Positions 15,989 to 36,169 of a stretch of DNA of 64,000 nt are shown in pieces; position 1 is the stretch's first letter, and the number at the start of each line of letters is the position of its first letter. Source of the stretch: Myxococcales bacterium (GTDB taxonomy: Bacteria > Myxococcota_A > UBA9160 > UBA4427); contig JADFNE010000001.1 of the NCBI GenBank assembly GCA_022563535.1, positions 23,964 through 87,963 on the forward strand, read 5' to 3'. The notes under the pieces are model-generated. The model had not been told where the DNA came from. It searched no databases and was given only the letters and a program-made list of their open reading frames with translations. Made by a program: the position numbers and the translations under genes.

Positions 15989-18143
15989 CGGGCATGGGGT
16001 CAACCCGGTGATCCGGGTGCTGGTGGTGGACGACGATCCAGTGATCCGGCTGCTCGCCTGTCAGTCTCTTTCCGCGATGGGCATGACACCCGCAGAGGCC
16101 GAAAACGGTCAGGATGCGTTGGCGATCCTCGAGAACACTCCGCTGAGCCTGGTGATCCTGGACGTGGAACTCCCGGGGCGGAACGGTCTGGAAATTTGCG
16201 CGGAAATGCGAGCGCTTGCGGCCGGTCGCGAAATTCCGATTTTGATCATCACCGGTCGCGAGGACTCCGAGGTGATCGAACGGGCCTTTGAGGTGGGCGC
16301 CACGGATTTCATCGGAAAGCCGATCGACTGGCAGCTGCTCCAGCACCGTGTCCGTTTTTTGATGCGAGCTCAGGGAGCCATCTCAGAGCTTCGGTCCATG
16401 CACACGGAGCTTCGCGAAAGTGAAGCGCGGCTGGCCAACGCGCAGCGGTTGGCGCGAATCGGAAACTGGGAATGGGTACCAGGCGATGAAGAGATGCTGT
16501 GGTCCGATCAGATCCACCGCATTTTTGAAATCCCGCAAGGCCCAGGAGTATCCACCCTCGAGAACTTCCTGGGTGTTGCCCATCCAGATGACCGCGAAGG
16601 TCTCGAAAAGGCGATCAACCGGGCGGCTGCTGAATCCGCGTCGTGGAGCCTCGACCACCGCATCGTGTTGCCCGAAGGCGAGGAGCGGGTCGTACGGCAA
16701 CAGGCGGAGGTGGTCACGGGGCCTTCGGGAGAGGCGTATCGCATTTCTGGGACGATGCAGGATATTACCGACCGGTTCCGCGCCGAGGAACAACTCCGCT
16801 ATCTCGCCTACTACGACGACCTCACCGCACTCCCGAACCGCAAGATGATGTTGGAGCAGATCGACCGGGCCATGCGCAGAGCCGAGATCAGCAAAGAGAT
16901 GGTGGGCCTGCTATTCCTCGACCTCGACCGGTTCAAGCGGATCAACGACATGTTTGGTCCCCAGTTGGGCGACTCGGTGCTCAAGGCGGTTGCGGATCGG
17001 TTGTTTGAATGCGTCCGCTATACGGACTACATCAGCCGCGCACAGCCGGCCGATGCCACCTCCCTCTCGAGAGTGGGTGGCGACGAGTTTGCGATTCTGC
17101 TGAACGGACTGAGTTCCTCGGAAGACGCTGCCCATGTGTCCCAGCGCATCATGGACGAGCTTCGAGTTCCCTTCACGGTGGACGGGCAGCGACTCGACCT
17201 GACCGTGACCCTGGGGATCGCTCTCTATCCAGCCGACGGTTCGGATGCTGAGACCCTGCTCCGCAACGCTGGCGTTGCGCTAGACCAGGCCAAGGCGCTG
17301 TCTCACAACAGCTGCCAGTTCTTCGACGAGTCGATGAACAAGAGAGTGATTCGAAACATGCAGCTCGAAACGGGGCTGCGATCGGCCATCGAGCGCGACG
17401 AACTGAGGGTCCACTATCAGCCGCAGATCGATGCGCACTCGGGCGAGATCGTTTCCGTGGAGGCTCTGGTTCGCTGGACCTCCTCGGAACTCGGCATCAT
17501 CAACCCCGTCGAATTCATTCCGGTGGCGGAGGAGTCCGGCCTGATCTTTACCCTGGGCGAATGGGTGTTGAGAACGGCTTGCACCCAGATTCGAGCCTGG
17601 CACGACGCGGGACTTCCCGAAATCGGGGTTGCGGTCAACGTCTCGAGCCATCAGCTGAAGCAGGGTGGTTTTGAGGAGGTCGTCGAGCGGGCGCTGCGGG
17701 ATGCGAACCTCGATACAAAGTTTCTCGAGCTCGAGATCACGGAGAGCGCCGTAATTGGGACGGAACCCGCTGTCGTCGCAACACTGAAGCGGTTGCGTGG
17801 AATGGGTATCCGTCTGGCCCTCGACGACTTTGGCACGGGTTGTTCGTCACTCAGCGACTTGGTCGAGTTTCCGATCACCAACCTGAAGATCGACCAGTCC
17901 TTCGTACGGCAGATCGGCGAAAACCAACATGCGAACGCGATCACCGCCGCCGTGCTGGCGATGGGACACAACCTGTCGCTCAGCGTCACCGCGGAAGGGG
18001 TCGAAACCGAGCCGCAGCTGGAGTTTCTGCGCGCCAGGCGATGCGACATCTATCAGGGCTACCTGTTCAGCAGACCCCTGGCGGCGGAAAAACTGGAGAA
18101 CCTTCTGCGCACGCCAGGGGGGATTCGGCCGTTGCCGGTCTAG
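15981..18143 (+). CDS. REC-PAS-GGDEF-EAL response regulator
   Basis: 720 aa from ATG 15981, inside the end of the hybrid kinase gene (ATGAGTAG overlap); an upstream in-frame ATG at 15894 lies deeper in the kinase gene. The receiver domain (about 10-125) has the acidic cluster DDD, Asp61 (ILDVELPG) and Lys113. A PAS domain spans about 150-270. GGDEF domain: [12 protein letters not shown] near residue 365, with no RxxD I-site before it. EAL domain: VEALVRW near 494, [26 protein letters not shown] and QGYLFSRPL, consistent with an active phosphodiesterase. It could both make and degrade c-di-GMP, with phosphorylation by the upstream kinase setting the balance (inference). Confidence 0.92.
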
Positions 18144-18163
18144 ACTGCGGTCAACCGAGAAGC

Positions 18164-19735
18164 ATGCAGATCGTCACGCTTCTGTCGATCAGCCTCTCGA
18201 TCGTCAGTCTTCTCGCCGTTGCGGGAGTGGGCTCGGCCGAAGAGGGCGCGGCTGCAGTTAGATGGATTCGCGAGATCCGGATTGTTCGCGGCAATGTATT
18301 CGAGCGCGCCGAAGTCGAGCGCTACGCCGTCTTTCAGCTTGCAAATTCGCTGCACGTTACGACCCGTGAGCACATCGTGAGTCGCGAGTTGCTGTTCACC
18401 GAAGGTGATCTCGTCGATTTCGATCTACTCGACGCGAGCGAGCGCGCGCTTCGAGCGTACGAGTTCATCAACGAGGCGCGCGTTGTCGCGGTACCGGTGG
18501 ACGAAGCGACGGTCGATATCGAGATCTACACCCACGACTCCTGGACAATCATTCCGGGCCTCTTTTTCGAAACGGGTGGGGGAGTCAGCGAGATCGGCGC
18601 GGCCGTAAACGAAATCAATTTGGGCGGGTTTGGCAAGGAAGTTCTGCTCGAAGGCGTTCATACGACCGACGTGGGGACGTCCTTTGCGGCGAGCTACAAC
18701 GATCCCCAGGTCTTTGGGTCGCGCTGGATTGCAAACTCGAACTTCAGAACGGGTCCTCTGAAGGACTCTACCGGTCTCTCGCTACTACATCCCTTCTACT
18801 CGCCCGACACTCGATGGGCCTACGGAGGTTATGGGAACTGGCGGGACGAAACGATCCGGCTGTTCGATTCGGGCTCCGAGGTGAGTCGCATCCGAGAATC
18901 GGAAAGCGGCGCGCAGATGTTCATTTCGCGCGCATTCGGACGCAGGTTCAACAAGCTCACTGCGGAGCTTCAGTACAATTATAAAGATCAGCGCTTCCGG
19001 GCCATCGAAGGGACCGGAACTACGCTTCCAGACGATGCGTTCAGCTTGACGACTTCGCTCGGCCTCTTCAGGCGTGGAGAATCCTTCGTCAAGGACAAGC
19101 ATATTCGCAAGATGACGCTCACCGAGGACATCCAGCTCGGATTCAATATTGGAGCTCGCCTCGGTCGTGCAGGATTTCCGATCCCCGAAGGTGAAAAGTA
19201 CTGGACGGTCGAAGGTATCTATCGCCACGCGTTCTCGCTGGGAAAACGCCAGTATCTATTCTTTGCCAGTCGGGTGTCTACCCAGGACAAACCGAGCACG
19301 GAGCTCTCTGTGAATGGCGAGTACTACTACAAATGGCTTCCTTGGCAGACCCTTGCGCTCAACGTTGAGGTCAAGCGCGCCTGGAACCTGGACTCATCCA
19401 AACAATTCACCCTCGGCGGCGATTCGGGTCTGCGGGGCTTCACTGCCCGACGATTCAACGGTGATAAGTCGCTGTTGGTGAACGCCGAGAGTCGACTCTT
19501 CTCTCCGATCGAAATTCTGACCGTGGCAGTTGGCGCGGTTGTCTTCATCGACGCCGGGCGCGCCTGGAACAGAGGGTCGAATATCGATCTCGAGGAACTG
19601 AAGTACAGCGCCGGGTTCGGCCTGCGACTTGGCTTCACACGAGCGCCGAACGAGCCCATGACCCGCATTGACATCGGCTGGCCCCCGAACCACGGTGGCT
19701 TCGCCGTGACAGTGGGTTCGGAGCACCAATTCTGA
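18164..19735 (+). CDS. Omp85/BamA-family outer-membrane protein
   Basis: 523 aa from ATG 18164, 20 bp after the GGDEF-EAL stop. A signal peptide (residues 1-28, ending ...GVGSAEE) precedes a POTRA-like region (about 35-130: IREIRIVRGNVF, LLFTEGDLVDFDLLDASERALRAYEFINEARV). The C-terminal part is a beta-barrel with the L6-type motif GGDSGLRGF and a barrel-like C-terminal strand ending in F (TVGSEHQF). The barrel is probably a 16-strand surface-antigen type. It is shorter than BamA, with room for only one or two POTRA domains, so it is not the housekeeping BamA. Its position behind the signalling pair suggests an outer-membrane step tied to the surface system. Export or assembly of the giant protein is possible but unproven. 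Confidence 0.8.
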   Translation: MQIVTLLSISLSIVSLLAVAGVGSAEEGAAAVRWIREIRIVRGNVFERAEVERYAVFQLANSLHVTTREHIVSRELLFTEGDLVDFDLLDASERALRAYEFINEARVVAVPVDEATVDIEIYTHDSWTIIPGLFFETGGGVSEIGAAVNEINLGGFGKEVLLEGVHTTDVGTSFAASYNDPQVFGSRWIANSNFRTGPLKDSTGLSLLHPFYSPDTRWAYGGYGNWRDETIRLFDSGSEVSRIRESESGAQMFISRAFGRRFNKLTAELQYNYKDQRFRAIEGTGTTLPDDAFSLTTSLGLFRRGESFVKDKHIRKMTLTEDIQLGFNIGARLGRAGFPIPEGEKYWTVEGIYRHAFSLGKRQYLFFASRVSTQDKPSTELSVNGEYYYKWLPWQTLALNVEVKRAWNLDSSKQFTLGGDSGLRGFTARRFNGDKSLLVNAESRLFSPIEILTVAVGAVVFIDAGRAWNRGSNIDLEELKYSAGFGLRLGFTRAPNEPMTRIDIGWPPNHGGFAVTVGSEHQF

Positions 19736-21201: not shown

Positions 21202-24018
21202 ATGGACGATCAATACCACGCTAGTCAGCGAGAAGAGAGCCGCCTGAAACAGGCTGCGTTCATGACGCTGTTCGGCCTGATGGGTGGCCATGCGCTGCTC
21301 GAGACCGCCCGAGACGCCCTGTTTCTCACGAATGTTTCCGTCGAGCGGTTGCCCTGGGTCTACCTGTTGATTGCCGTGTCCGCGGTGTTCGTCGCGCGAT
21401 TGCAAATGAGATCGCAGCAAGTCGCAGATCACCGTCAGCAGTTGATTGTCCTTCAGGGAACGGCCGCGGTCATTACTCTCGGGTTCTGGTTTTTGCTGCC
21501 AAGCGCTGACGCGTGGCTCTACTACGCGCTCTATGTCTGGTCGGGATTGATCGGCAGCATTCTGGTCGTAACGTTCTGGTTGGTGCTCGGGGAGCTGTTT
21601 ACGATCACTCAGGGCAAGCGGATTTACGCCTCGATTGGTACGGGGGGAGCTGCGGGGGCGATTGCGGGTTTCGGTCTCGCCGCGGCGTTTACATCGCGCC
21701 TCCCGGCCGAGTTTCTGCTTCCGGCGAGCGCGCTCCTGTTCGCATCGAGTGCGCTTGGTCCCTTGGCGTCGCTCCGCCGACCGATGGAGGATCTGGCGGA
21801 TGAAATCGTGGCATCCCCCGGCCCCGAGATCGAGCAGGGTGGTACCGGCTTGCTCTCGAGTCTGACTGACATCGTCGGTCACCCGTATGCGCGTCGAGTT
21901 GCACTGCTCGTGGTTCTGTCGGCGATCACGCTCACCTTGGGCGACTACCTGTTCAAGAGCGTCCTCACCGAGGCTGTGTCCGCGGACAAGCTTGCGGCCT
22001 GGTTTGCGAGGATCTACCTCGTGCTCAACCTGGGCTCGCTGCTGGTGTTGATGTTTGGTGTTACCCGAATCATTCGTCGCGTGAGCGTTCATCGAGCCAT
22101 GGCGATCTTGCCCGGGCTCGTTTGTCTGGCGGCAGTGGGGATCTTGCTGGGCGGTGCGCTGCTCCCAGTCTTGTTTCTCAAGTTTGCGGACGGAACCCTG
22201 CGCTACTCGGTTCAGAAGACTGCGAGCGAACTGCTCTATCTCCCCATGCCGGCGGAGTTGCGCCGAAGAATCAAGGGAACCATCGACATCATGGGACTGC
22301 GGGGTGCGAGTGCCATCTCGTCTGGGCTGATCTTGCTCGCGCTCGCGATCGGTCCGCCCACCTCGCTGATTGCCGGTATGGTGCTGTTGCTCGGGGTTGC
22401 GTGGATCGCGCTCGCGCTGGAACTGCGCGGGGCATACCTCGATGTGTTTCGTGAGGCTCTGCGGGAAGGGACGATCGAGACCCGGATCGACGTCCCCGAA
22501 CTCGATCTGGCTTCGCTCGAAACCCTGATTCGCGCACTCAATCATTCCGACGATCGACACGTCCTGGCTGCCCTCGACCTGCTCGAAGCCAAGGGCAGGG
22601 TGGAGTTGATTCCGAGCCTGATTCTCTACCACCCGTCGTCGGAGGTCGTGGCCCGGGCCCTCGATCTGTTCGCGAGTTCGGGTCGGCGAGACTTCATCAT
22701 GCTCGCCGACCGATTGCTGGCGAGTGAAGACGCCGAGATTCGCGCAGCGATGGTGCGCGCCATGTGGGCCGCGGAGCCCGACCGTGAAAAGCTCGAAGCA
22801 CTCATGGACAACGAATGCCTGTGCGTCCGAACCAGCGCCGCAATCGGTTTGTTGGTGAACGACTGGATCGAGCCCGAGGTTGTACGTGAGCTCATTGAAG
22901 CATCAATCCAGTATCCCGATCCAGCGGCCCGGCTGGCCCTCGCCAACGCGATCAAGCTGCGTCACATCCCTGAGTTCCGCGAACCCGTTCATCTGCTGGC
23001 GCGGGACCCCGATCGAGCAGTTCGCCGAGAAGCGCTGCGGGCCATTAGCGCAAGTGGAGACGAGAGCTATACACCATTGCTCGTTCAACTCCTCGACGAT
23101 CGCGATATCCGAGAAGATGTACGTGAAGCACTGGGCGACCGAGGTGATGCTGCCCTCGAAGAGCTGTGGCGAGCACTCACAAGCGAAGATTCTTCGCCAG
23201 CATTGCTCCGACACATTCCCCGATCAATCTCCAGATTCCAAAACGTTCGCGCTGCAGAAATATTGCTCGGAGAACTGGTTGCCGAACACGGCCCCGATGG
23301 CGAACCGAAAGATCGGCATTCGGGAATGGTTCGCTACAAAATTTTACGCGGCCTCGTGCCATTGCTCCAGGGCTCGATGACAGACCAGGTCGACAAGAGC
23401 CCCCTCCACACCTCTGTTGCGCGCACAATCAGGCGGGTCATTCAGATGCTCCACTGGCAAATCTGGCTCGAAGACGGAAGAGCCCGGGACGAAGCGCGCC
23501 AGACCTGTGGCAGTTACCTGTTGCTTCAGTTGCTCGAAGACAAAGAGCGACTGGCGATGCAGCGGATCTTCAGGATGCTTTATCTGATTCAGCCGGAAGA
23601 GAATTTTATCCACATCTGGTCGGGACTGCAGAGCATGAGCCGCCGGGATCGCGCGAGCAGCCTGGAGCTTCTCGAGAACGTGCTCGGGGCGGAGCAACGT
23701 CGCGTGGTCGTGGCCTTGGTCGAATCGGGGCCCAAGCGCGAACGTCTGAGGCGAACCGGCAACCGATTGTCCGAAGCCCCGCTCGAGTATTCCGAACTCC
23801 TCTCCCAGATAGGGCGCGACGACAGCCGCACACTCCATGGGCTGGCGATGTATCACGCTGATGAGATGGGGTTGGATATTGATTTCGGGCAAATTGTCTT
23901 CGAACCTCAGGTGGAAGGTTCTCGCATGTCCGTTCGCGAGCAAGCGTTGGCGCTGATCGAGCGACTTCCGGACGGGCCGGCCTTCCCACTGGGCGCCGCG
24001 GTGGCTGCTGATGTCTGA
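21202..24018 (+). CDS. ATP/ADP-translocase-like (NTT/TLC) carrier with C-terminal HEAT repeats
   Basis: A 938-aa protein. Residues about 15-410 carry about 12 hydrophobic spans with NTT/MFS-like features (FADGTLRYSVQKTASELLYLPMP, then RRRIKGTIDIMGLRG), as in nucleotide-translocase-like proteins. The remaining roughly 500 residues are soluble and alpha-helical, with HEAT-type repeats (for example AALDLLEAKGRVELIPSLI, VRREALRAISASGDESYTPLLVQLL). The substrate is not proven; exchange of ATP, ADP or other NTPs is the family role. The stop overlaps the start of the cNMP-binding gene by 8 bp, which implies tight coupling. A second NTT-like gene follows. Related fused arrangements of NTT, HEAT and cNMP domains occur in free-living bacteria (from memory). 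Confidence 0.82.
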   Translation: MDDQYHASQREESRLKQAAFMTLFGLMGGHALLETARDALFLTNVSVERLPWVYLLIAVSAVFVARLQMRSQQVADHRQQLIVLQGTAAVITLGFWFLLPSADAWLYYALYVWSGLIGSILVVTFWLVLGELFTITQGKRIYASIGTGGAAGAIAGFGLAAAFTSRLPAEFLLPASALLFASSALGPLASLRRPMEDLADEIVASPGPEIEQGGTGLLSSLTDIVGHPYARRVALLVVLSAITLTLGDYLFKSVLTEAVSADKLAAWFARIYLVLNLGSLLVLMFGVTRIIRRVSVHRAMAILPGLVCLAAVGILLGGALLPVLFLKFADGTLRYSVQKTASELLYLPMPAELRRRIKGTIDIMGLRGASAISSGLILLALAIGPPTSLIAGMVLLLGVAWIALALELRGAYLDVFREALREGTIETRIDVPELDLASLETLIRALNHSDDRHVLAALDLLEAKGRVELIPSLILYHPSSEVVARALDLFASSGRRDFIMLADRLLASEDAEIRAAMVRAMWAAEPDREKLEALMDNECLCVRTSAAIGLLVNDWIEPEVVRELIEASIQYPDPAARLALANAIKLRHIPEFREPVHLLARDPDRAVRREALRAISASGDESYTPLLVQLLDDRDIREDVREALGDRGDAALEELWRALTSEDSSPALLRHIPRSISRFQNVRAAEILLGELVAEHGPDGEPKDRHSGMVRYKILRGLVPLLQGSMTDQVDKSPLHTSVARTIRRVIQMLHWQIWLEDGRARDEARQTCGSYLLLQLLEDKERLAMQRIFRMLYLIQPEENFIHIWSGLQSMSRRDRASSLELLENVLGAEQRRVVVALVESGPKRERLRRTGNRLSEAPLEYSELLSQIGRDDSRTLHGLAMYHADEMGLDIDFGQIVFEPQVEGSRMSVREQALALIERLPDGPAFPLGAAVAADV

Positions 24019-24940
24019 CTTGCCCCTGGTTTCTCCCCTCGATCGAGTGTTGTTTCTCCGCACCCAGCCACATTTTGCGCGGCTCGAACCCGCGGCCCTC
24101 GTGATCATCGCGAACCACACCGTGGAGCGAAGCTTTCGCAAGGGGGACGTCATATTCGAAGAGTCTAAGCCGCGACGATTTTTCCACTTTCTGGTTGAAG
24201 GGACGGTGCGCACGACCCTGGACGGGGAGACGCTGTTCGATGTCTCGGCTCCGGGCGGGGTAGGGTTGGCCCACGTATTTGCCAGAAGTGACCAGCCGAG
24301 TGGCGCGGTTGCGCTTACGGATGTCGTTTCTCTTCAAATCGAAGTCGAAGTCTTCATGCAAATCATGGAGGACTGCTTTCCAATCGTCTTTGAATTTGGA
24401 CAGATACTCGCCAAGATGATCGGGAATGCGGAAGAGACGCTCAGCATTGCTCCCGGCGCCGATGAGTGCGTCGCTTGTCGGGTTCCCGCGTCCGATGAGA
24501 CTCTCGACCTGGTGCAGCGGCTGACACGCACACGGAGAGCGTCGCTATTCAGCAAGGCCAGCCTGACCATGCTGACCGAACTGCTGCGCGGAACTCCCGA
24601 ACACTACGTAGAGCAAGATGAGTGGCTGTTTCGACCGGGACAGCTCCCCAAGTCACTTTTCGTGATCTTCGAAGGAACCGTGCGGATCGAAGATCAGCTG
24701 GGCAAACGGGTCGCATTTGCAGGGCCCGGCGAAGTGGTCTCCCTGGCAGACTGCTGCCGGAATGAACCGCACAGTTTTGGCGCGATTACCGACTCGCCAG
24801 TCCAACTTTTACGCATAGACAAGTCGCACTACATCGACGTGCTCGAGGACCATTTCGAGCACGCGCTCGATTTGTTGGCCGAGCTGGCGCAGAGGTATCT
24901 CGAACTCAGCGTACGGATCCACCAAAGTCCTGTTTCGTGA
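24011..24940 (+). CDS. Protein with two cyclic-nucleotide-binding (CAP-ED) domains
   Basis: 309 aa. Two cupin-like cNMP-binding domains are visible, at about 15-140 (FARLEPAALVIIANHTVERSFRKGDVIFEE, FHFLVEGTVR) and about 185-305 (LFRPGQLPKSLFVIFEGTVRIED, FAGPGEVVSLADCC). No DNA-binding helix-turn-helix or catalytic domain follows, so it is unlikely to be a CRP-type regulator. Its start lies within the stop region of the NTT-HEAT gene (ATGTCTGA). It probably regulates that carrier in trans (inference). Whether it binds a cyclic nucleotide is open: the second domain lacks an obvious full phosphate-binding cassette. Confidence 0.82.
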   Translation: MSDLPLVSPLDRVLFLRTQPHFARLEPAALVIIANHTVERSFRKGDVIFEESKPRRFFHFLVEGTVRTTLDGETLFDVSAPGGVGLAHVFARSDQPSGAVALTDVVSLQIEVEVFMQIMEDCFPIVFEFGQILAKMIGNAEETLSIAPGADECVACRVPASDETLDLVQRLTRTRRASLFSKASLTMLTELLRGTPEHYVEQDEWLFRPGQLPKSLFVIFEGTVRIEDQLGKRVAFAGPGEVVSLADCCRNEPHSFGAITDSPVQLLRIDKSHYIDVLEDHFEHALDLLAELAQRYLELSVRIHQSPVS

Positions 24941-25027
24941 AACGCATTTAAACTCAGTTGTGTGACGGGTCCATTCTGAGGATCATTCGCTAGGCTCTTT
25001 GCCTCACCGGATGCGCGATACGCGCAA

Positions 25028-26467
25028 ATGGTGTGGCGGAATCAAGTTTCACGTAAATCGCTGCGGCAATTATTTTCTGGGACAAATCAATTGGCAAAGT
25101 CCGGGGTTTTGCGGTCTCTGTTCGATGTGCGACCGGATGAACGGCGCATCGCTGCGTTGATGTCCAGCTTCTTCTTTCTGGTGATTACTTCCTTCTGGAT
25201 CTTGAAGCCGCTAAAGAAGATGCTCTTCATCGGCTACTACGCCGAGCCGGGTTTCGACCTCTTCGGTTCTCACTTTGTGGCTTCAGAAGCGGAGCAGCTG
25301 GCAAAGGTGCTGAACATGTTCGTCGCGGCCGTGGCGGCGGCCGTCTTTTCGATTTTGTCTCGCCGCTTGCGACGCGAGCGGCTCACCTACGTGTTCGCGA
25401 TCTTCTTCATCGTCGCGTACGGGATCTTCGCGATGGGTCTGAGAACGCTCACCGGTCCTGGGGTCTGGAGCTTCTATCTATTCGGCGATCTGTTCAGCAC
25501 GCTGATGGTCGCGACGTTTTTCTCTTTTCTGAACGACAGCGTTTCTTCGGGGGCAGCCAAACGTCTCTACGGGGTGATCGGATTTGGTGGCGTTGCCGGT
25601 GGGGCATTCGGCTCGAGCGTGGTCGCACTGTGGATTAGTTCGCTTTCGCTCGCAGGCTGGCTCGTCGTCACAGCGGCGATTGGTGGCGCGATCCTGCTGG
25701 TCGCCCGGGCGGCGGCCAATTCAATACCCGACGACGGATCGGCAAGCAACGCCCCGAGCAAGGCTAAAGCAGCGCCTGCCTCAGACGTCTCGGCCTCTGC
25801 ATCTGCGGGCAATGCGGCTCTCGCGGGAGCGCGACTCGTCTTCGGTTCGAGTTACCTGCTCTCGATCGTCGCGATGGTGGCTTTCTACGAAGTGGTGTCC
25901 ACGGTGGTCGACTTCCAGTTCACCAGGGCGATCATTTCGTTCTCTGCGGACGATGCCGCGCGCAATCAGAATTTCGCCACGGTCTATGCCGCGACCAACT
26001 GGCTTTCGATGTTCGTGCAACTTTTCTTGACGAGCTTCGTCATGCGTCGCTTCGGGCTCGCCACGGCACTGATGGTCCTGCCGTGCACGATTGCACTCGC
26101 GTCACTGGGTTTCCTTTTAGTTCCGACGCTTGTGATGGGAGGTCTGCTCAGTGTCGCCGACAACGGTTTCAGCTACTCGATCAACCAGTCGTCGAAGGAA
26201 GCTCTCTATGTACCGACTACAGTCGAAGAAAAGTACCAGGCGAAGGCTTTCATCGATATGTTCGTTCAGCGCTTCGCAAAGGCGTGCGGTGTGGGCTTGA
26301 ATCTCGTGGTGGCGAACCTGGTGCACGGGGTGCCAGGGATACGGGCGCTTACCTTGTTAGTACTTCCGGTTGTCGGGCTCTGGGCCTTCTTTGCACTCAG
26401 AGCGGGCAGAGGCTTCAACGAACTCGAGAAGAAAAGGCGTCAAATCCAGAAGATTAAGGTCGGCTGA
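25028..26467 (+). CDS. Second ATP/ADP-translocase-like (NTT/TLC, MFS-fold) carrier
   Basis: A 479-aa membrane protein with about 12 hydrophobic segments from residue 45 onwards (FFFLVITSFWILKPLKKMLFIGYY is a typical NTT start). It contains GVIGFGGVAGGAFGSSVVALW and, late in the protein, DNGFSYSINQSSKEALYVPTTVEEKYQAKAFID, which matches the pattern of the first carrier and of TLC family members. The start has no clear RBS; a start nearer residue 45 is possible but would remove a basic N-terminus. It is followed after 37 bp by the kinase-like/Omp85 gene. Nucleotide exchange is the family function; the direction and membrane partner are unknown. Confidence 0.82.
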   Translation: MVWRNQVSRKSLRQLFSGTNQLAKSGVLRSLFDVRPDERRIAALMSSFFFLVITSFWILKPLKKMLFIGYYAEPGFDLFGSHFVASEAEQLAKVLNMFVAAVAAAVFSILSRRLRRERLTYVFAIFFIVAYGIFAMGLRTLTGPGVWSFYLFGDLFSTLMVATFFSFLNDSVSSGAAKRLYGVIGFGGVAGGAFGSSVVALWISSLSLAGWLVVTAAIGGAILLVARAAANSIPDDGSASNAPSKAKAAPASDVSASASAGNAALAGARLVFGSSYLLSIVAMVAFYEVVSTVVDFQFTRAIISFSADDAARNQNFATVYAATNWLSMFVQLFLTSFVMRRFGLATALMVLPCTIALASLGFLLVPTLVMGGLLSVADNGFSYSINQSSKEALYVPTTVEEKYQAKAFIDMFVQRFAKACGVGLNLVVANLVHGVPGIRALTLLVLPVVGLWAFFALRAGRGFNELEKKRRQIQKIKVG

Positions 26468-26504
26468 TTCAGCACAATGGACTCCCGAATATAAAGGACA
26501 TCGG

Positions 26505-29168
26505 ATGTTTCCTCTGCGCGTCGCTCGAGGCGCTGTTTCCGTTTGCATCGTTGCGTTTGTATCCCTCGTTGCGAACGCAGCAGCGGACATTGACCCTGCG
26601 GAACGCGTGAGCGTTGCGGCGAGCGAACGCTACGAAGCGGGCCGTGTCTACCGCTTTGCCATGGGCGGGGGCTATCGCGATCTTTGGGAAGTCGAAGTTC
26701 CGTTGCCGCTCCTCGATCTGGCGAAAGAGGGCGGGGGTCTGGTTCCCACCCGTCGTTTCGGCGGTTTGCAGACATCCGTACTGGGTTTCAAGGGTGCCGA
26801 TGGTCGGATCTACAGTTTCCGCGGGACGGACAAGGATCCTTCTGCGGTGCTTGACTCACTGCTCCACGACACTGTCATCCAGACCATCGTGCAGGACCAG
26901 ATGGCAGCGCAACATCCGGCGGGCCCGCCGGTGGCCGGTGTGTTGACGGAAGCGGCCGGCGTTCTCACCATTCGCGAGCGCATGGTGGTGATGCCCGACG
27001 ATCCGAGGCTCGGAAAGTTTCGCAAAGAGTTTGCGGGCATGGTGGGGACGTTCTTCGAGTATCCCATGCCCGGATCCGGAGGCCGCGAGGGTTTCCACGG
27101 CGCCACCGAGATCATCGATCACGACGAACTCTACACCCGACTTTCGCGGGACAACAAAGACGAAGTGGACGTAGAGGCGTTCTTGCGGGCACGACTGCTG
27201 GACATTTTTCTCGGAGACTTCGATCGACATCGCAAGCAGTGGCGCTGGGCAAAACTTCCCGGAAACCCGCGCTGGCAGCCGATCCCGGAAGATCGGGACA
27301 TGGCCTTCGTGCGCTACGACGGTGTGGGCCCGAGGCTCGCAAAAATCTACATTCCGATCCTTCAGCGCTATACGGCGGAGTATCCGTTCATCAAGGGGTT
27401 GACCCTGCACGGTTGGGAGCAGGATCGCTGGTTGTTGCCGCGGTTGTCCTGGCAGGACTGGGAGCCGATCATTGCCGACATCGGGGCGCGCATCACCGAC
27501 GAGACGATCGATCGGGCGATCGCAAATCTGCCGCCCGAATATGCCGCCATCGATGGAGCTCGACTGCGCAGCGATATCGTGGGCCGTCGCGACAACCTCC
27601 CCGAGGTCGCGAGACGTTTCTACGAACATCTGGCCGGAAAGGTCGACATCCAGACATCGGACGCGGCTGATCATGTGAGCGTGCAGCGACGTAAAGATGG
27701 ACGCATGCTGGTAGAAATTCGCGAGCAAACGGAAGGCGGCGCCCTCGGACGGGTTCACTTTCGGCGGGAGTTCATACCGGCCGAGACGAACGATGTGCGT
27801 CTCTATCTACGCGGCGGCGACGATACCGTTCGAATTACCGGGGGCACGGGTTCGATCCGCTTCCGGGTGATTGCAGGGGACGGCAAAAAGCGAGTCGACG
27901 ACAGCGAGGGGGGTAGGACGCGAGTCTATGCCTCCGATGGCCGTTTGGATGGCCATGCCGATGGCAACATCGAGGTTGCAGCCGGAGGTGGTACAAAGGT
28001 CATCCGCGACGACTATGTATTGCCACCGTCCGATTCCGGATTCGTGGACGTGGAGAACGTGCCCCCCCGCGACTGGGGGACCGACACGATTCCGCTGCCC
28101 CAGTTGGGCTACGAAAAAGACGTCGGCTTCTTCCTCGGCATGGCAGCGGCCCACACCCGCTATGGCTTCCGAAAGCACCCTTGGAGCAGCAAGCACAGCT
28201 TGAGCGCGGGCTATGCGACCGAGGCCGCGAAGGCCCGGGTTCGTTACCGCGGAAGGTTTCGCCCCGAAAATTCGCAGCTACTGGCGGAGCTCGACCTACA
28301 ATACTCGGGAATCGAAGTGGTGCGCTTCTACGGCTTCGGGAACAAGACCAGCGACAAGGGCGAAGACAAGTCCTTTCGCGTTCGCAACGAGCAACTCCGC
28401 GTGTTCCCGAGCATTAACGTTCCGATGTTCGATGACAAGCTCAAACTCTCAACGGGTCCGGTCCTGCAGTATTCGAACACCTCGAGTGGAGATCGTAAGA
28501 TCGACGAACTCGCGCCCTACGGAGACGGTCACTTCGGTCTGGTAGGGGTCAGGGCCAATCTGCAGTACGACACGCGCAAATCGATCGCGACCGAGCATGA
28601 AAAGTTGGAGATGCCCTTTCGGGACAACCCGGCGGCGGGCTATCCCACATCGGGTTTCTTCGTGGATGTGGGCGGGAGCTTCAGCCCGCCGGTCTGGGAC
28701 GTGGAAAAAAGCTATGGGACGATCCACGGGTCGATCTCGGGATACCTGAGTGTGGGTAAAGAGGCGAAGGCCACTCTCGGTGTTCGCTTGGGCGGCCAGG
28801 AAACGTGGGGGCGACTTCCGTATTTCGATTACGCCTATATCGGCGGAGGCCGTTTCTTCAGCGGCACCGCGACCAATCGCGGTTATCGATCGCGGCGATT
28901 CGCCGGCAACTCCTCGCTCTATATGAATACCGATTTGCGGGTCGTTCTCGGCCGGGTGAAGCTGATCGTTCCCGGAGACGTTGGGGTCCACGGTTACTTC
29001 GATGTCGGGCGGGTCTTCCTCGATGGCGAGTCTTCCGATAAATGGCACACGAGCGGTGGTGCTGGGGTCTGGTTCTCACCGCTCGTACGGACGAACACAA
29101 TCAGCCTCTCGCTGGCCAACAGCAACGAAGAGACGCTCATTTACATGCGCGTCGGGTTTCACTACTAA
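26505..29168 (+). CDS. Exported fusion of a kinase-like domain and an Omp85-type outer-membrane barrel
   Basis: 887 aa from ATG 26505 (AAAGGA six nt upstream); a longer frame from 26370 lies inside the previous gene. The signal peptide is residues 1-27. Residues about 40-400 contain FRGTDKDPS (candidate catalytic Lys110), Glu185 in TFFEYP, GDFDRHRKQWRW (237-248) and PEDRDMAF (261-268). These resemble the catalytic Asp/Gln loop and DFG-equivalent Asp of HipA-, CotH- and FAM20-like kinases. A beta-rich linker follows. Residues about 545-887 form a BamA/TamA-type barrel (GYRSRRFAGN L6-like loop, terminal MRVGFHY). From memory, a similar region occurs in large barrel proteins of Bacteroidetes. 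Kinase activity is an inference. The gene is adjacent to two nucleotide-translocase-like carriers. Confidence 0.75.
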   Translation: MFPLRVARGAVSVCIVAFVSLVANAAADIDPAERVSVAASERYEAGRVYRFAMGGGYRDLWEVEVPLPLLDLAKEGGGLVPTRRFGGLQTSVLGFKGADGRIYSFRGTDKDPSAVLDSLLHDTVIQTIVQDQMAAQHPAGPPVAGVLTEAAGVLTIRERMVVMPDDPRLGKFRKEFAGMVGTFFEYPMPGSGGREGFHGATEIIDHDELYTRLSRDNKDEVDVEAFLRARLLDIFLGDFDRHRKQWRWAKLPGNPRWQPIPEDRDMAFVRYDGVGPRLAKIYIPILQRYTAEYPFIKGLTLHGWEQDRWLLPRLSWQDWEPIIADIGARITDETIDRAIANLPPEYAAIDGARLRSDIVGRRDNLPEVARRFYEHLAGKVDIQTSDAADHVSVQRRKDGRMLVEIREQTEGGALGRVHFRREFIPAETNDVRLYLRGGDDTVRITGGTGSIRFRVIAGDGKKRVDDSEGGRTRVYASDGRLDGHADGNIEVAAGGGTKVIRDDYVLPPSDSGFVDVENVPPRDWGTDTIPLPQLGYEKDVGFFLGMAAAHTRYGFRKHPWSSKHSLSAGYATEAAKARVRYRGRFRPENSQLLAELDLQYSGIEVVRFYGFGNKTSDKGEDKSFRVRNEQLRVFPSINVPMFDDKLKLSTGPVLQYSNTSSGDRKIDELAPYGDGHFGLVGVRANLQYDTRKSIATEHEKLEMPFRDNPAAGYPTSGFFVDVGGSFSPPVWDVEKSYGTIHGSISGYLSVGKEAKATLGVRLGGQETWGRLPYFDYAYIGGGRFFSGTATNRGYRSRRFAGNSSLYMNTDLRVVLGRVKLIVPGDVGVHGYFDVGRVFLDGESSDKWHTSGGAGVWFSPLVRTNTISLSLANSNEETLIYMRVGFHY

Positions 29169-30644: not shown

Positions 30645-31070
30645 CTATCCGGCGTTGTCCATCCACATCACGAGGGGCAGGAGCCCGTACGCCGCGAACA
30701 GCGAGAATGCGAAAATGGCGGTTGCCCCGCGGAGTATCCAATTTTGAACGCGCAGCCGCTTGGCGTCCAGGATGCTGCACGAGCTGGCGTTGCGGAGACG
30801 TCGCACCTGCCACCACGAGTATCCGAGCGCTGCGGCGGTGAAGCCGAAGGTCGCCAGCTTGTACTCCGAGAGCGCCACCAACCATGGGAGCGCCGATGCC
30901 ATGGAAGCCACAGCGCCACCCGCACCCAAGGCCACCAGGGTGATAGGGAGCGCGCAGCAGGTGGTACCGAGCAGCGTCATGCCGACGGCAGAAAACACAC
31001 TTGCCCCGGCGCCCTGGGCGGTCTCTTCCAGCTCTTCTTCCAGCTCATTCTTCCTCAATTCGCTTTCCAT
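30645..31070 (-). CDS. MerT-like small membrane protein
   Basis: 141 aa with three to four hydrophobic segments. The first span carries a paired cysteine in GTTCCALPITLVALGAGGA, the layout of the mercuric transporter MerT (CC in the first span, then a Gly-rich turn). Later spans lack the second Cys pair expected for full MerT. The N-terminus is acidic and Glu-rich. The ATG overlaps the stop of the upstream barrel gene (TGATG), so the two are coupled. A role in metal-ion uptake or delivery linked to the HMA protein upstream is likely, but the metal is unknown. It is the last gene of the operon. Confidence 0.65.
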   Translation of the reverse strand: MESELRKNELEEELEETAQGAGASVFSAVGMTLLGTTCCALPITLVALGAGGAVASMASALPWLVALSEYKLATFGFTAAALGYSWWQVRRLRNASSCSILDAKRLRVQNWILRGATAIFAFSLFAAYGLLPLVMWMDNAG

Positions 31071-31948
31071 CAGAACGCCACTCCCAGTCCCACATTGACT
31101 TCGGTTCCGTAGCTTACTTGCGTACCCCGGGCGTATTGATAGACCGGGATCTTCACGTCCGCGCGTATCATCAGGTTGTTCCAGTAGCCCACTAGAACCG
31201 GACCGAGGGAAATGCGGCTTCCCCCGGTCGTACCTCCCGTGTCGCGACCGCTGCCTTCGTGCCGCACAGACAAATCTCCCATCAAGAAAATTCCCAGGTT
31301 GCGATAGTTGTCGTGGTAGGGATGGATGCCAATGTTCACGTCCAGGCCAACTTCATCGCCGCGGTTCATGCCCCGATCTCCCTTTGCATTGTGCCAGTAG
31401 AAGAGGTCGTAGAATTGGTAGAGCTGGCTCGTCTCCCTGCTGAACGAAGTGCTGACCCCAACATCCCAGCTGCCGTCGCCCACCGGATAGCCGGCATTCG
31501 TCGATCCCGTGGGCACACGAATGCTCGGGGTCACCCCGATGTTCCCGGTGCTCTCTGCGCGGTTGAAGTAGTGCTTGAGCTGAAGACCGAGTATCGAATC
31601 TCCGATCCCACTCCCGGTCTGGGTCGTGGGAGCACCGCCCGAGCTGGAAACGCGTCGCTGATCGACCCATGGAAGCTTCGCGGTCAGCCTCAGTTCTCGT
31701 TTGAAGGTGTAGACCCCTTCGAGCCAGGTGGTATTCACGGTCCGCTTGCGACCTTGGGTATTGGCGACTTTTTTGTCCCCGCGCAAAAGCGAGTTTGAAA
31801 AACGGTGCTCGTTGCGAAGCTGGATACCCCATCCCCCCTGCCAGCGAGGGGCCATGTCCATCACGGGCTGGTGCGCCTGGCCCGTCGTTGCCCCGCCCGC
31901 TGCGATCAGCAGCGCGAGGGTAAAAGTTTTCAACCAGCGACTATCCAT
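31070..31948 (-). CDS. Outer-membrane beta-barrel protein (MetA-pathway transporter-like)
   Basis: 292 aa. A signal peptide (residues 1-26, ...GQAHQ) is followed by alternating beta strands with many aromatic residues (LPWVDQRRVSS, IGDSILGLQLKHYF, VGYWNNLMIRADVKIPVYQYARG). The protein ends in a terminal strand with Phe (NVGLGVAF), as in outer-membrane barrels. It resembles the putative outer-membrane 'transporter' family often found beside metal-resistance genes. It overlaps the HMA gene by 8 bp upstream and the MerT-like gene by 1 bp downstream. The function is inferred as an outer-membrane channel or structural protein of the metal operon. Confidence 0.65.
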   Translation of the reverse strand: MDSRWLKTFTLALLIAAGGATTGQAHQPVMDMAPRWQGGWGIQLRNEHRFSNSLLRGDKKVANTQGRKRTVNTTWLEGVYTFKRELRLTAKLPWVDQRRVSSSGGAPTTQTGSGIGDSILGLQLKHYFNRAESTGNIGVTPSIRVPTGSTNAGYPVGDGSWDVGVSTSFSRETSQLYQFYDLFYWHNAKGDRGMNRGDEVGLDVNIGIHPYHDNYRNLGIFLMGDLSVRHEGSGRDTGGTTGGSRISLGPVLVGYWNNLMIRADVKIPVYQYARGTQVSYGTEVNVGLGVAF

Positions 31949-32504
31949 TCGTACCCTCTGTGCGCACGGGGTTCGACTTGGAGATCACTCGGTCAATCGT
32001 CACCTTCACCGGTTCGGTCTCGTCCAACTCCAGAATCTGGCTCGCTTCGAAATGGGCTTGTACCACGACGTTGGCCTGGTCGGTGATTCCCGACAGGTCG
32101 GTATCGCTGATCGCAAAGACCTGACCGCTATTGGCATCTCGCAAGAAAAGCGCATCGCCCGCTTTTTCCAGTTTCCCTTCGGGTCGCACATGGATGGTGA
32201 TCGGGTCGTAGCCCGCCTTTTTGATTCGCCGATAAATCTCGTGAAACGGAATCTTCTCACCCGGTTGCAGGGCAATGGTGATCCGGTGCGTCTCGACGTC
32301 AACCAGCACACCATTGCCAAACTCGGTCTTGTTCAGACCGTCGAGCTTGGACAACGCCTTCTCTGCGCCATATGCACAGAAGGAACAAACCACCCCGTTG
32401 ACCTGGATGATGGTCTGGTCCCGCTCGAGGACGACGGGGCTTGCGTCGGCGAACGCCATCTTCGTCGTGAGTAGTAGTGCTGCGATAAAAATGATTTGCT
32501 TCAT
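31941..32504 (-). CDS. Periplasmic heavy-metal-associated (HMA) domain protein
   Basis: 187 aa from ATG 32504 (GAGGAAA upstream). An upstream in-frame start is rejected because it would precede the signal peptide MKQIIFIAALLLTTKMAFA. Residues about 28-100 form an HMA fold with the metal motif VNGVVCSFCAYGAEKALSKL (CxxC), similar to MerP and CopZ. The C-terminal 80 residues are a separate beta-rich domain (VRPEGKLEKAGDALFLRDA ... VVVQAHFEASQILELDETEPVKV) that I do not recognise. It probably binds Cu, Hg or a related thiophilic ion in the periplasm. It sits 19 bp behind the multicopper oxidase gene. Confidence 0.78.
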   Translation of the reverse strand: MKQIIFIAALLLTTKMAFADASPVVLERDQTIIQVNGVVCSFCAYGAEKALSKLDGLNKTEFGNGVLVDVETHRITIALQPGEKIPFHEIYRRIKKAGYDPITIHVRPEGKLEKAGDALFLRDANSGQVFAISDTDLSGITDQANVVVQAHFEASQILELDETEPVKVTIDRVISKSNPVRTEGTNG

Positions 32505-32523
32505 TGGTTTCCTCTGTTTAGTT

Positions 32524-33774
32524 CTATTTCTTGATGCGGTACGCGACCGTGTTCTTCGGGTGGTCATACCAGCCCGGGTCTTCGTAACTCGAGATGTCAT
32601 CTCGTACCTTGACGGTGGTGAACATCCCGCCCATTTCGATGTTTCCGAATGGACCACGACCCATCATCATGGGGAGCGTGTTGCGGGGCCCCGGCATGTG
32701 CATCGAGTGATCCTGGTGCTCCGCCATGCCTTTCTCGCCCATCGCCATGTAACCGGGCAGGAGTTGCTGAATTTTGCTCTCGAGGCCGCGCTGATCGACC
32801 CCGAGGTTGTTCGGGATCTCGTGACCCATCGCGTTCATGGTGTGATGCGATTTGTGGCAGTGAAACGCCCAGTCTCCCGGCACGTCGGCGACGAACTCGA
32901 CATCTCGGGTGGTTCCAACCGGCACGGCCACGGTGGTTTGCGGCCACTGGCCGGCTTCGGGAATTGAGCCGCCGTCTGTACCGGTTATCTTGAACGCGTA
33001 GCCGTGTATGTGAATTGGGTGCTGATCCATGCTCAGGTTCCCGATCCGGATGCGGACACGATCTCCGGTCTTGATCACGAGCGGGTGGGTTGCTGGAAAC
33101 ACCTTGCTGTTGAAGGTGAAGATGTTGAAGTCGAGCATGACCGAAGGATCGGGGCGGTAAGTGCCGGGGTGCACCGCCCATTCGTGGGTCATGAAGGCAA
33201 AGTCGCGGTCTACCCTCGCTGGCGTCTTTGGGTGAATGATGAACATCCCCATCATGCCCACCGCCATCTGCACCATCTCGTCCGCATGGGGGTGGTACAT
33301 GAACGTTCCGTGTTGGCGGAGCGTGTATTCGTAGACGAAGGTTTCGCCCGGGGCGATATGGGGTTGGTTGAGTCCCCCGACTCCGTCCATCCCGTTGGGC
33401 AGGAAGAGTCCGTGCCAGTGAATGGTGGTGTGCTCAGGGAGTTTATTGGTGACGAAGATCCGAACCCGATCTCCTTCGACAGCCTCGATCACGGGGCCCG
33501 GTGTCATGCCGTTATAGCCCCAGGCCTTGACCGTCATGCCCGGAGCAAACTCGTGATCGATCGGCTCGGCGGTCAGGCGGAACTCTTTGACACCCCCATT
33601 CATCTTCCAGGGCAGTGTCTTGCCATTGGGCACGATCACCGGCTTGTAGCCTTTGGGTTGCGCAGAAACCCCTGGCAAGCTCGGTGTGTCGACAGCCGCA
33701 GCGCGCCGCGACGACAACAAGCCAGCGCTTCCCGCGAGAAGCAGTGAAGATAGAAATTCGCGTCTACTTGCCAT
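32524..33774 (-). CDS. Tat-exported multicopper oxidase
   Basis: 416 aa. The twin-arginine signal SRREFLSSLLLAGSAGLL lies at the N-terminus. Copper ligands are IHWHG, MYHPHAD, HPIHIHG and FHCHKSHHTMNAM; the last fits the HCHxxxHxxxxM type-1/type-3 motif exactly. A Met/His-rich tail region (MAMGEKGMAEHQDHSMHMPG) could bind extra copper. It probably oxidises Cu(I) or another metal in the periplasm, as CueO- and CopA-type enzymes do. It is shorter than CueO (about 516 aa). It lies in a metal operon between a TolC-type lipoprotein and an HMA protein. Confidence 0.9.
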   Translation of the reverse strand: MASRREFLSSLLLAGSAGLLSSRRAAAVDTPSLPGVSAQPKGYKPVIVPNGKTLPWKMNGGVKEFRLTAEPIDHEFAPGMTVKAWGYNGMTPGPVIEAVEGDRVRIFVTNKLPEHTTIHWHGLFLPNGMDGVGGLNQPHIAPGETFVYEYTLRQHGTFMYHPHADEMVQMAVGMMGMFIIHPKTPARVDRDFAFMTHEWAVHPGTYRPDPSVMLDFNIFTFNSKVFPATHPLVIKTGDRVRIRIGNLSMDQHPIHIHGYAFKITGTDGGSIPEAGQWPQTTVAVPVGTTRDVEFVADVPGDWAFHCHKSHHTMNAMGHEIPNNLGVDQRGLESKIQQLLPGYMAMGEKGMAEHQDHSMHMPGPRNTLPMMMGRGPFGNIEMGGMFTTVKVRDDISSYEDPGWYDHPKNTVAYRIKK

Positions 33775-33807
33775 GTTCTACTCCGTCTTTCAGTCGTTCG
33801 AGGTACG

Positions 33808-35313
33808 TCAATGGTTGTGGTGTTGATGCGGCGCGGGGGGATTGGGTTTCGAGTCTGGCATCGCATGCCCCATGTGTTCGTGCATCGGCGCTTGCATTTC
33901 CTGTGGAGTCGCCGGCTCCGAGTCAATTTCGTCCGTTGTTGTGACAGGCAACGGCCCGCCGAGCGCGCTTGTCAACATTGCGCGTGATGTCCAGTAGTCC
34001 TTCAGTGCTTCGACATAATCTCGGTACGCAGCGATTTCGTCTCGCTTGGCGCTCAAGAGTTCAAAGGCACCGACGAGCATGAAGTTGAATTCTTGCTGGG
34101 TCAGTTGAACGATTCGCTCTCGCAGGGGAATGACCGTGTCGAGGTAGCTTTCGCTCAAGGCTCTGGCTGCCCGCAGCGCTTCGCGCTGAACGCGAACGTC
34201 GTGTCGAATATCGAGCAAAAGCGCTTCGTGTGCCCGCTTGCGCTCGCGCAGCATGGATTCGAAGCGAGCCACCTGCACTTGCCCCTGGTCGAAGATCGGG
34301 ATCTCGAGTGCAAGTACCGGCCCCACGACCCAGCCGCCTTCAGTCTCCCTCTCCGCACTGACGCCCACTTCAACGAAGGGAATCCAGCGATACAAGCGCG
34401 CCGCGGAAAGCGCCCGCTCGAAGGCGTCAATCTCCAACTCGAGCGCTCGCAGGTCGAACCGATTGCCGATCGCATGAGCTTCGAGTCCTTCGACTACGAG
34501 CGTCTCGCGAGGTACTCCGGGGAGCGTCTCCGGAGTCTCGAGCGATGTGTTGTCGCTGAGCCCGAGCAGGCGAATCAATCGCTCACGAGGTGCCGCGCTG
34601 TTTGCCTCTGCAATGTCCCGGGCCACTCGGGTTTCTTCATAGAGTGCGCGTTCCCGAGCAAGTTCGAGGTCACTGATATTGCCAGCCGCGTGGAGCCGAG
34701 CGGCGTATTCACTGGAGGCAGCGGCGGCTCGCTGGGTGGTGCGGAGCACCGAGAGGAGATGCCGCGCCGCGACGTACTCGTAGTAGGCTTCTCGCACCTC
34801 GGAGGCGACATCGAGCACCCGATGTGAGACGCGAAGCCGCGCCTCGTGAAATTGCATGCTCGCGATTTCTTTTTTGGAGCGCAGCGTCAGAAGTTGAAGC
34901 AGGTTCTGGGCGATGTCGAACTCGAGGTTCGTCCCCGAGAGCGAGCCGATGCCAAAGCGAGGTGCTGCGACGAGCACCGGGTTCTGCAAAAGCCCGGCAG
35001 CAATGAGATCGGCTTGTGCGACGCCGAGCGATTCGTAACTGGCCTGCAGGTCGGGATTCTGAAGCAGCGCAATCTGCACGGCGGTGTCGGGCAGCAGAAC
35101 ATCTTTCAATAATTCGGCCACCCGCGCGCGAATCGCCGCGTCCTCTGCGGCATCTTGTTGCCAACTCAACTCGTAGCCAGTGCGCTCGGCGACGTCCTGT
35201 TCGATCTCTGAAAAGCCGCCGCGCGGTGGAACACTCACGCACCCGAGGGCAGCTGCTACGAGCAGGCCCAAGCTGAGAATGGAAGCGACGGACGACGCGT
35301 GTCTACCAGGCAT
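33808..35313 (-). CDS. TolC/CusC-family outer-membrane efflux lipoprotein
   Basis: 501 aa from ATG 35313. The start overlaps the stop of the upstream gene by 11 bp, and a longer frame from 35406 is not needed. The lipoprotein signal ends VAAALGCVSVPP (Cys lipidation site). Two repeats of the long alpha-helical TolC architecture are visible (NPDLQASYESLGVAQADLIAAGLLQNPV and the later ALEIPIFDQGQVQVARFESMLRERKRAHE). The C-terminal tail is His/Met/Pro-rich, ending PHQHHNH, and may bind metal. No RND pump or adaptor of the Cus type is in this operon, so the inner-membrane partner is elsewhere or different. Confidence 0.85.
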   Translation of the reverse strand: MPGRHASSVASILSLGLLVAAALGCVSVPPRGGFSEIEQDVAERTGYELSWQQDAAEDAAIRARVAELLKDVLLPDTAVQIALLQNPDLQASYESLGVAQADLIAAGLLQNPVLVAAPRFGIGSLSGTNLEFDIAQNLLQLLTLRSKKEIASMQFHEARLRVSHRVLDVASEVREAYYEYVAARHLLSVLRTTQRAAAASSEYAARLHAAGNISDLELARERALYEETRVARDIAEANSAAPRERLIRLLGLSDNTSLETPETLPGVPRETLVVEGLEAHAIGNRFDLRALELEIDAFERALSAARLYRWIPFVEVGVSAERETEGGWVVGPVLALEIPIFDQGQVQVARFESMLRERKRAHEALLLDIRHDVRVQREALRAARALSESYLDTVIPLRERIVQLTQQEFNFMLVGAFELLSAKRDEIAAYRDYVEALKDYWTSRAMLTSALGGPLPVTTTDEIDSEPATPQEMQAPMHEHMGHAMPDSKPNPPAPHQHHNH

Positions 35314-36019
35314 AATGGTCAATTCCGTATAGAAGCGATCCGCCGAGGAACCCGGTGATGGTGACGAGGGCCGCGCCGGCGAAGAGCACCGAGCGAAAGC
35401 GACCACGCAATTCGTCGGACCGGGTCAATTGCGTCGAAACGAAAAGCAGGACGCCGGCCCACAGCGCGGTCGCGGTTCCGAACCAGCGATGGGCGGTCAT
35501 GACCCACTCGTCGTCGACGAACTGGAAACCGGCAAAGAACCAACCGAGCGGCGCGGTGGCCAACGCGGCGCCAGCGCCAAGCCAGACCGAGAAACGCGCG
35601 GCGTGGTCATATTGCACTTTTCCGGTTCGCATGAAGAGCAGTTCTGCGAGTGCAGCTGCAGCCAAAAGAGCGATCGGGAAGTGCGTGAGCGGTGGATGAA
35701 ACTTACCCAACCAGGCGAGCAGCTTGGGTACGTTGCTCTCGCGTGCGCCAGCTTCTGTTGGCTCGACATCATTCTCTTCAACTTCATTCCCCACAGTCAA
35801 AGCGTGATTGGAATGGTCATGCTGCTTTGTTGCCGGGTTCTCAGCGATCTCTCTGGGAGCAGGGGCCACTGGCGCATGCGTCTCATGCAGCGAAGCAGAC
35901 TTGGCAGCTTCTTTTGCCGCATCCTCGTGCGCCTTGTGGGCTGATGCTGACGCTGGAGCGAAAAGCAGCAGGCTCAACGCTGCCCCCATGGCCATCGTAC
36001 GAATCGCTATGTCTGTCAC
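35303..36019 (-). CDS. DUF2231-like membrane protein with His-rich exported N-terminus
   Basis: 238 aa from GTG 36019, chosen because AGGGAG lies seven nt upstream; an ATG at 36076 has no such support. A signal peptide (MGAALSLLLFAPASASA) leads to a His-rich stretch (HKAHEDAAK, LHETHAP, KQHDHSNHA). Four membrane spans follow: HPPLTHFPIALLAAAALAELL is the typical first span of DUF2231 proteins, with paired His that may bind haem or metal. It overlaps the TolC gene and sits in the metal operon. A metal- or redox-related role is inferred from context only. Confidence 0.68.
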   Translation of the reverse strand: MTDIAIRTMAMGAALSLLLFAPASASAHKAHEDAAKEAAKSASLHETHAPVAPAPREIAENPATKQHDHSNHALTVGNEVEENDVEPTEAGARESNVPKLLAWLGKFHPPLTHFPIALLAAAALAELLFMRTGKVQYDHAARFSVWLGAGAALATAPLGWFFAGFQFVDDEWVMTAHRWFGTATALWAGVLLFVSTQLTRSDELRGRFRSVLFAGAALVTITGFLGGSLLYGIDHYAW

Positions 36020-36169
36020 AACCGATCTCCCTGAAACACAAATTCCCCGCGCGCGGCAAAAGCGCAACGCAGACATCCCCGGCGAACTGGGCAGCGAGCG
36101 TTTGGACTGAAGAACAGTCCCATGCGCGCAACTAGCCGCATCGCCGTGGGGCTTGGAAGTTTCGGAAGA

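Follow-up and report, generated by a model that had tools for sequence, protein, structure and literature searches.

Analysis of a 64,000 nucleotide stretch of DNA from a Myxococcales bacterium, referred to here as the window, revealed a cluster of four plus-strand genes (21202–29168) in which two carriers of the ATP/ADP-translocase type precede a gene for a protein that we have designated KINBAR. KINBAR was predicted to consist of a kinase-fold domain joined to an Omp85-type beta-barrel. We propose that the cluster is an extracytoplasmic phosphotransfer module, in which a periplasmic kinase held at the outer membrane would be supplied by ATP/ADP exchange through the second carrier, NTT2; the probability of this whole chain is put at about 0.5.

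Organisation and conservation of the cluster

The four genes encode, in order, NTT-HEAT, a cyclic-nucleotide-binding domain (cNBD) protein, NTT2 and KINBAR (Table 1). Both carriers scored above the Pfam gathering cut-off of 21 bits for PF03219 TLC (42.2 bits for NTT-HEAT and 51.6 bits for NTT2), and a profile of both carrier types matched the ADP,ATP carriers 9j3n (E 1e-41) and 9j3j (E 7e-30) in the PDB. Both were far below the 387-bit cut-off of TIGR00769, which represents NTP/NDP exchange (42.6 and 41.9 bits). NTT-HEAT also matched HEAT_2 at 50.7 bits, and its residues 47–413 contained 11 hydrophobic segments. The start of the cNBD gene overlapped the stop of NTT-HEAT by 8 bp, and 38 bp lay between the end of NTT2 and the start of KINBAR. 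For NTT2, the alignment of orthologues makes the TTG at 25091 a more likely start than the ATG at 25028. The initial annotation had placed two ATP/ADP-translocase-like carriers directly upstream of KINBAR. Both were indeed found upstream on the same strand, with NTT2 adjoining KINBAR and the gene of the 309-aa cNBD protein between the carriers; the cluster comprised four genes rather than three. An Rfam search of the cluster gave no match, and promoter and terminator scans of it gave chance-level results only.

Table 1. Positions of the genes of the cluster and of the regions of KINBAR in the window
Feature	Position	Strand	Basis
NTT-HEAT, 938 aa; TLC carrier domain (residues ~1–420) and HEAT repeats	21202..24018	+	Pfam
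cNBD protein, 309 aa; two cyclic-nucleotide-binding domains	24011..24940	+	PF00027, two stretches, 88.7 bits
NTT2 carrier, 479 aa as called	25028..26467	+	PF03219
KINBAR, 887 aa; putatively exported kinase-like domain and Omp85-type barrel	26505..29168	+	Signal-peptide-like N-terminus, models, homologues
KINBAR kinase-fold domain (predicted), residues 33–378	26601..27638	+	Predicted model, fold matches, invariant residues
KINBAR catalytic-loop motif D240-RHRK-Q245 (putative), within GDFDRHRKQWRW	27222..27239	+	Conservation, CtkA alignment
KINBAR candidate metal-binding (DFG-type) aspartates D263/D265 in PEDRD	27291..27299	+	Conservation, position as in CtkA
KINBAR outer-membrane 16-strand Omp85-type beta-barrel (predicted), residues 526–887	28080..29165	+	TamA/BamA fold match

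A gene for an Omp85-type protein lies upstream of the cluster (window frame 17840–19735, starting near MQIVTLL; PF01103, 37.7 bits). This gene and an amidohydrolase gene were considered as members of the cluster and rejected, as they were not conserved with it in relatives. On the minus strand, 30645–36076 of the window encoded a heavy-metal cluster of MerT-like, HMA-domain, multicopper oxidase, outer-membrane efflux and DUF2231 proteins. The same genome (G000) also encoded a third, very divergent NTT-HEAT-like protein of 1049 aa (G000:C3:104668-105330, locus L119).

Homologues of KINBAR were found in Myxococcota, Acidobacteria and Gemmatimonadota. The complete gene order was present in the window, in another Myxococcota locus (L024) and in two Acidobacteria loci (L032 and L033) with a KINBAR identity of ~40–44%, while the Myxococcota locus L029 held a truncated copy of it and L016, L023, L025, L026 and L027 held partial gene sets. 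An orthologue of the cNBD gene occupied the equivalent place in L024, L032, L033, L029, L016, L027 and L056. An NTT also adjoined KINBAR in L023, L025, L026, L035, L045 and L108, lay on both sides of it in the Gemmatimonadota locus L145, and was found two genes away within the KINBAR cluster of L123. A membrane Ser/Thr protein kinase and a DegP-like protease were encoded between KINBAR and the NTT of L123 (7244–10383). The gene order is thus conserved far beyond chance. On the KINBAR tree the presence or absence of an NTT required at least 6 changes, and the linkage is therefore spread over several separate KINBAR branches. Among the set of relatives, an NTT was encoded by 10/11 genomes with KINBAR and 23/86 without it (p 6e-5); leaving out G001, in which the match was a 42-residue fragment, the counts were 9/10 and 24/87 (p 2e-4). 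In the sample of the Acidobacteria-type phylum, 5 of the 7 KINBAR genomes had an NTT compared to 56 of the 192 others (p 0.03).

Operons and fusions of NTT-HEAT and cNBD have already been described (Major, Embley and Williams 2017, PMC5381601). In the available part of that paper, an NTT-HEAT fusion with a cNBD gene immediately behind it, which is also the arrangement of the window, is described from free-living bacteria, Deltaproteobacteria and Acidobacteria among them. Unlike the window cluster, no adjacent exported kinase and no second NTT is named in that part of the account.

Predicted structure and active site of KINBAR

KINBAR has a signal-peptide-like N-terminus (MFPLRVARGAVSVCIVAFVSLVANAAAD), and is probably exported. 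By sequence, it was over no Pfam family cut-off and had no match in the PDB at E 1; fold comparison alone succeeded. The full-length AlphaFold2 model had a pLDDT of 87.9. As VIA-align of the whole model listed only barrels, the kinase domain (about residues 33–380) was folded alone (pLDDT 91.9). The best 50 VIA-align matches of this domain were kinases only, in agreement with Foldseek. The match to CotH (5jd9) had a Z of 15.2 over 254 residues (rmsd 4.2), followed by PI4KII (Z 15.1), CtkA (Z 14.9), HipA (Z ~12) and Fam20C (Z ~11). For the CotH family PF08757, the domain alone scored 13.6 bits and the whole protein 11.8 bits, below the gathering cut-off of 23.8. VIA-align of the modelled barrel with TamA (4n74) gave a Z of 25.0 over 290 residues (rmsd 2.9), and Foldseek matched it to TamA, BamA and Sam50 at E ~1e-10; by sequence it was under the PF01103 cut-off (17.1 vs 24). 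POTRA domains were absent from the model, in which residues 379–505 formed strands only and no helices. The N-terminal domain is therefore predicted to have a kinase fold of the CotH/PI4KII/CtkA type and the C-terminal domain a 16-strand barrel like that of BamA and TamA. These models bear out the earlier reading of KINBAR as an exported kinase-like/barrel protein.

PlpD, a patatin-Omp85 protein (PMC11116518), is an earlier example of an Omp85 barrel joined to an enzyme of the periplasm. Like KINBAR as predicted, PlpD is exported and carries its enzyme domain N-terminal to a 16-strand barrel; KINBAR differs in having a kinase fold rather than patatin and a beta-only domain in place of POTRA. 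The signal peptide together with the topology of PlpD would put the kinase domain on the periplasmic side. No earlier description of a kinase-Omp85 fusion as a type of barrel-fused enzyme was found in the literature searched.

Residues R106, K110, D131, D240, R241, D263 and D265 were invariant among 33 KINBAR homologues from the three phyla. A weak profile match aligned GDFDRHRKQW of KINBAR with GNFDRHNGNW of CtkA, and D263 and D265 (each 33/33) follow the catalytic loop as in CtkA. The position five residues after D240 was Q in 32/33 homologues and N in one. KINBAR thus has the features of an atypical kinase, namely a catalytic Asp, a metal Asp and a basic nucleotide-binding residue, with R106 and K110 as candidates for the beta-3 Lys. 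A barrel-less relative of KINBAR, with the exported kinase domain only (433 aa, ~39% identity), was encoded at L053 (7836–9302), and a tandem pair of KINBAR genes was found on one Gemmatimonadota contig (L040, 5285–10562).

The carriers and a second exported kinase-like family

The AtNTT1 residues K155, E245, K527 and E385, the last of which we take to be a fourth key charge position, were mapped onto the carriers through the profile. NTT2, like every complete gene of its clade (alpha, below), had K,D,D,K at these positions and so keeps all four charges, with D for E at two of them. NTT-HEAT of the window had Y,G,D,S, keeping one charge of the four. K155, E245 and K527 are known to be important for the ATP/ADP carrier (PMC3306366). 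NTT2 thus shares its Pfam family and the four key charges with AtNTT1 and the bacterial NTTs (PDB 9j3j and 9j3n), differing from characterised ATP/ADP carriers by the two substitutions. Its charge pattern makes NTT2 the likely nucleotide exchanger of the cluster; NTT-HEAT may be a sensor or regulator, or may transport a different substrate. The two carriers are therefore not equivalent. The initial annotation had suggested that both could handle nucleotides for phosphorylation outside the cytoplasm, which from these residues is plausible for NTT2 but not supported for NTT-HEAT, where three of the four key charges are missing.

A second family of putatively exported kinase-like proteins, usually with a lipobox-like N-terminus, was characterised by the motifs KWK, HxDGRxGN and DNGxxFG and by invariant K97/K99, D222-RxGN227 and D243-N-G. 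PI3_PI4_kinase was touched by 13 of its 17 members (best E 2e-4) and Fam20C by four of the 17. A profile-profile comparison of these lipoprotein kinases with the KINBAR kinase domain gave no significant match (probability 0.5%), and the two were therefore treated as separate families. Genes for lipoprotein kinases adjoined an NTT in 7 genomes, and in G007 the NTT-HEAT/cNBD/NTT2 triad carried one in the place of KINBAR.

The NTT tree contained two kinase-linked clades, alpha, which includes NTT2 of the window, and beta. Alpha-clade NTTs adjoined KINBAR (four cases), the lipoprotein kinase of G007 and, in L069, a barrel-only Omp85 gene; beta-clade NTTs adjoined the Acidobacterial KINBAR and six lipoprotein kinases. 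The beta-clade NTTs kept one key charge or none, and the Acidobacterial NTTs beside KINBAR lacked most of the pattern. Such a swap of partners is difficult to account for unless NTTs and exported kinases are functionally linked. The initial annotation would have been refuted had the carriers and the kinase-like gene not co-occurred elsewhere; they did, with NTTs beside KINBAR in Myxococcota, in Acidobacteria and in a small number of Gemmatimonadota, as well as beside a second kinase family. In L069 (6393–8761), the NTT was directly downstream of the barrel-only gene. In L062 (1330–3808), an NTT had a divergent lipoprotein kinase on one side and, on the other, an exported protein resembling beta-lactamase (PF13354), and in L073 and L074 NTT-HEAT proteins of >1,200 aa were directly beside an exported protein that appeared by eye to be zinc carboxypeptidase-like.

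Possible phosphoryl donor and target of KINBAR

KINBAR was encoded by 59 of 200 genomes of the Gemmatimonadota phylum. It showed no association with PF03219 in this sample (16/59 vs 55/141, p 0.14), although the test is weak because PF03219 misses some NTTs, such as that of G391 (L145). Most Gemmatimonadota KINBAR loci were without an adjacent NTT, and an obligatory role of the NTT for KINBAR was rejected on these data. The neighbours here were instead PPK1, CYTH, DUF4956 and an exported metallophosphatase. Across 64 KINBAR loci, some of which had supplied the HMM seeds, PPK1 was found in 10, CYTH in 9, DUF4956 in 14, metallophosphatase in 13, PAP2 in 7 and PPK2 in 3, whereas none of the six families occurred in 287 kb of comparison loci. 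PPK2 was beside the Acidobacteria KINBAR of L035, L041 and L045, in L035 and L045 together with an NTT. The claim that ATP/ADP exchange explains the whole does not extend to these genomes: it cannot explain the whole KINBAR family because most Gemmatimonadota KINBARs adjoin polyphosphate genes and have no neighbouring NTT. Overall, the initial interpretation is partly supported, but it applies neither to both carriers nor to every relative of the kinase. The Gemmatimonadota neighbours point to the supply of a phosphoryl donor to an envelope kinase as the general theme, of which ATP/ADP exchange is likely one version.

In the pel clusters of Gram-positive bacteria, the genes for CotH, polyphosphate polymerase and DUF4956 lie side by side (PMC7112168), and KINBAR therefore looks like a Gram-negative, barrel-anchored counterpart. 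KINBAR and CotH share the kinase fold (Z 15) and, in Gemmatimonadota, the CYTH/PPK1 and DUF4956 neighbours; KINBAR is below the PF08757 cut-off and fused to a barrel, and the window has NTT carriers in place of polyphosphate genes. This published gene set and the recurrence of the six families would also suit a kinase-barrel that uses polyphosphate, or ATP made from it, with carriers for phosphate, for nucleotides or for some other phosphorylated compound that take part in envelope phosphate and polyphosphate handling. On this reading, which we consider unlikely, the NTTs would serve salvage or recovery and not the export of ATP. No polyphosphate gene was adjacent in the window or the other Myxococcota KINBAR loci, NTT2 keeps the charges of an ATP/ADP carrier, and PPK enzymes are cytoplasmic, so that the donor would still need to cross the membrane.

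The target is a separate matter. A lipid is a serious candidate because of the similarity to PI4KII, which matched as strongly as CotH, and the exported PAP2 genes near KINBAR, found at 7 loci in three phyla (G000 has just three PAP2 matches). KINBAR could then phosphorylate lipid or LPS in the inner leaflet of the outer membrane, with the PAP2 phosphatase as its counterpart and possibly with nucleotide supplied by NTT2; PlpD, also an Omp85-fused enzyme, acts on phospholipids (PMC11116518). As an account of KINBAR we hold this to be somewhat doubtful, given that CotH and Fam20C of the same fold phosphorylate proteins, that the fold does not give the substrate and that no PAP2 gene is near the window locus. 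That the genes for PAP2 and metallophosphatase beside KINBAR are also compatible with a lipid or phosphate-recycling reading counts against the proposed module. It is improbable that KINBAR is a pseudokinase or binding scaffold whose gene came to lie here through shared cyclic-nucleotide regulation of unrelated envelope functions. Which residue is the canonical beta-3 Lys is not obvious, since both R106 and K110 are invariant, and Q stands where the metal-binding N is usual; but the invariance of D240, D263, D265, R106 and K110 is the behaviour of an active site, and an independent kinase-like family shares the NTT partners.

Under the proposed phosphotransfer module, KINBAR would be exported by means of its signal peptide and would enter the outer membrane through its barrel; the kinase domain would hang in the periplasm, in the manner of the PlpD patatin domain, and would phosphorylate a protein, lipid or glycan of the envelope. 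In the inner membrane NTT2 would exchange adenine nucleotides, bringing ATP out for the kinase and ADP back; strict ATP/ADP exchange is the simplest reading of NTT2. NTT-HEAT with the cNBD protein is less likely to be a second ATP carrier than a companion or regulator that senses cNMP in the cytoplasm. For the kinase-barrel of Gemmatimonadota, polyphosphate enzymes could regenerate ATP, or polyphosphate could itself act as donor, and the PPK2 genes that adjoin the NTT in L035 and L045 would be consistent with the returned ADP being regenerated. That bacteria of several phyla have dedicated nucleotide exchangers in the inner membrane which deliver periplasmic ATP to kinases, either lipoproteins or anchored in the outer membrane, is a more tentative proposal, which we rate at somewhat below even odds.

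Kinases of the Fam20C/VLK type resemble KINBAR as atypical kinases outside the cytosol with an analogous need for imported nucleotide, but they are eukaryotic Golgi enzymes for which, to our knowledge, there is no homologous partner that carries ATP. Because the periplasm is regarded as ATP-free, kinases should be impossible in this compartment. A conserved pairing of carrier and exported kinase would overturn this view for these bacteria and, if true, would be a prokaryotic counterpart of the way in which ATP is imported for Fam20-type kinases of the eukaryotic secretory pathway. The NTT families of free-living bacteria, widespread but uncharacterised, would thereby gain a function, and phosphorylation in the envelope would become directly testable.
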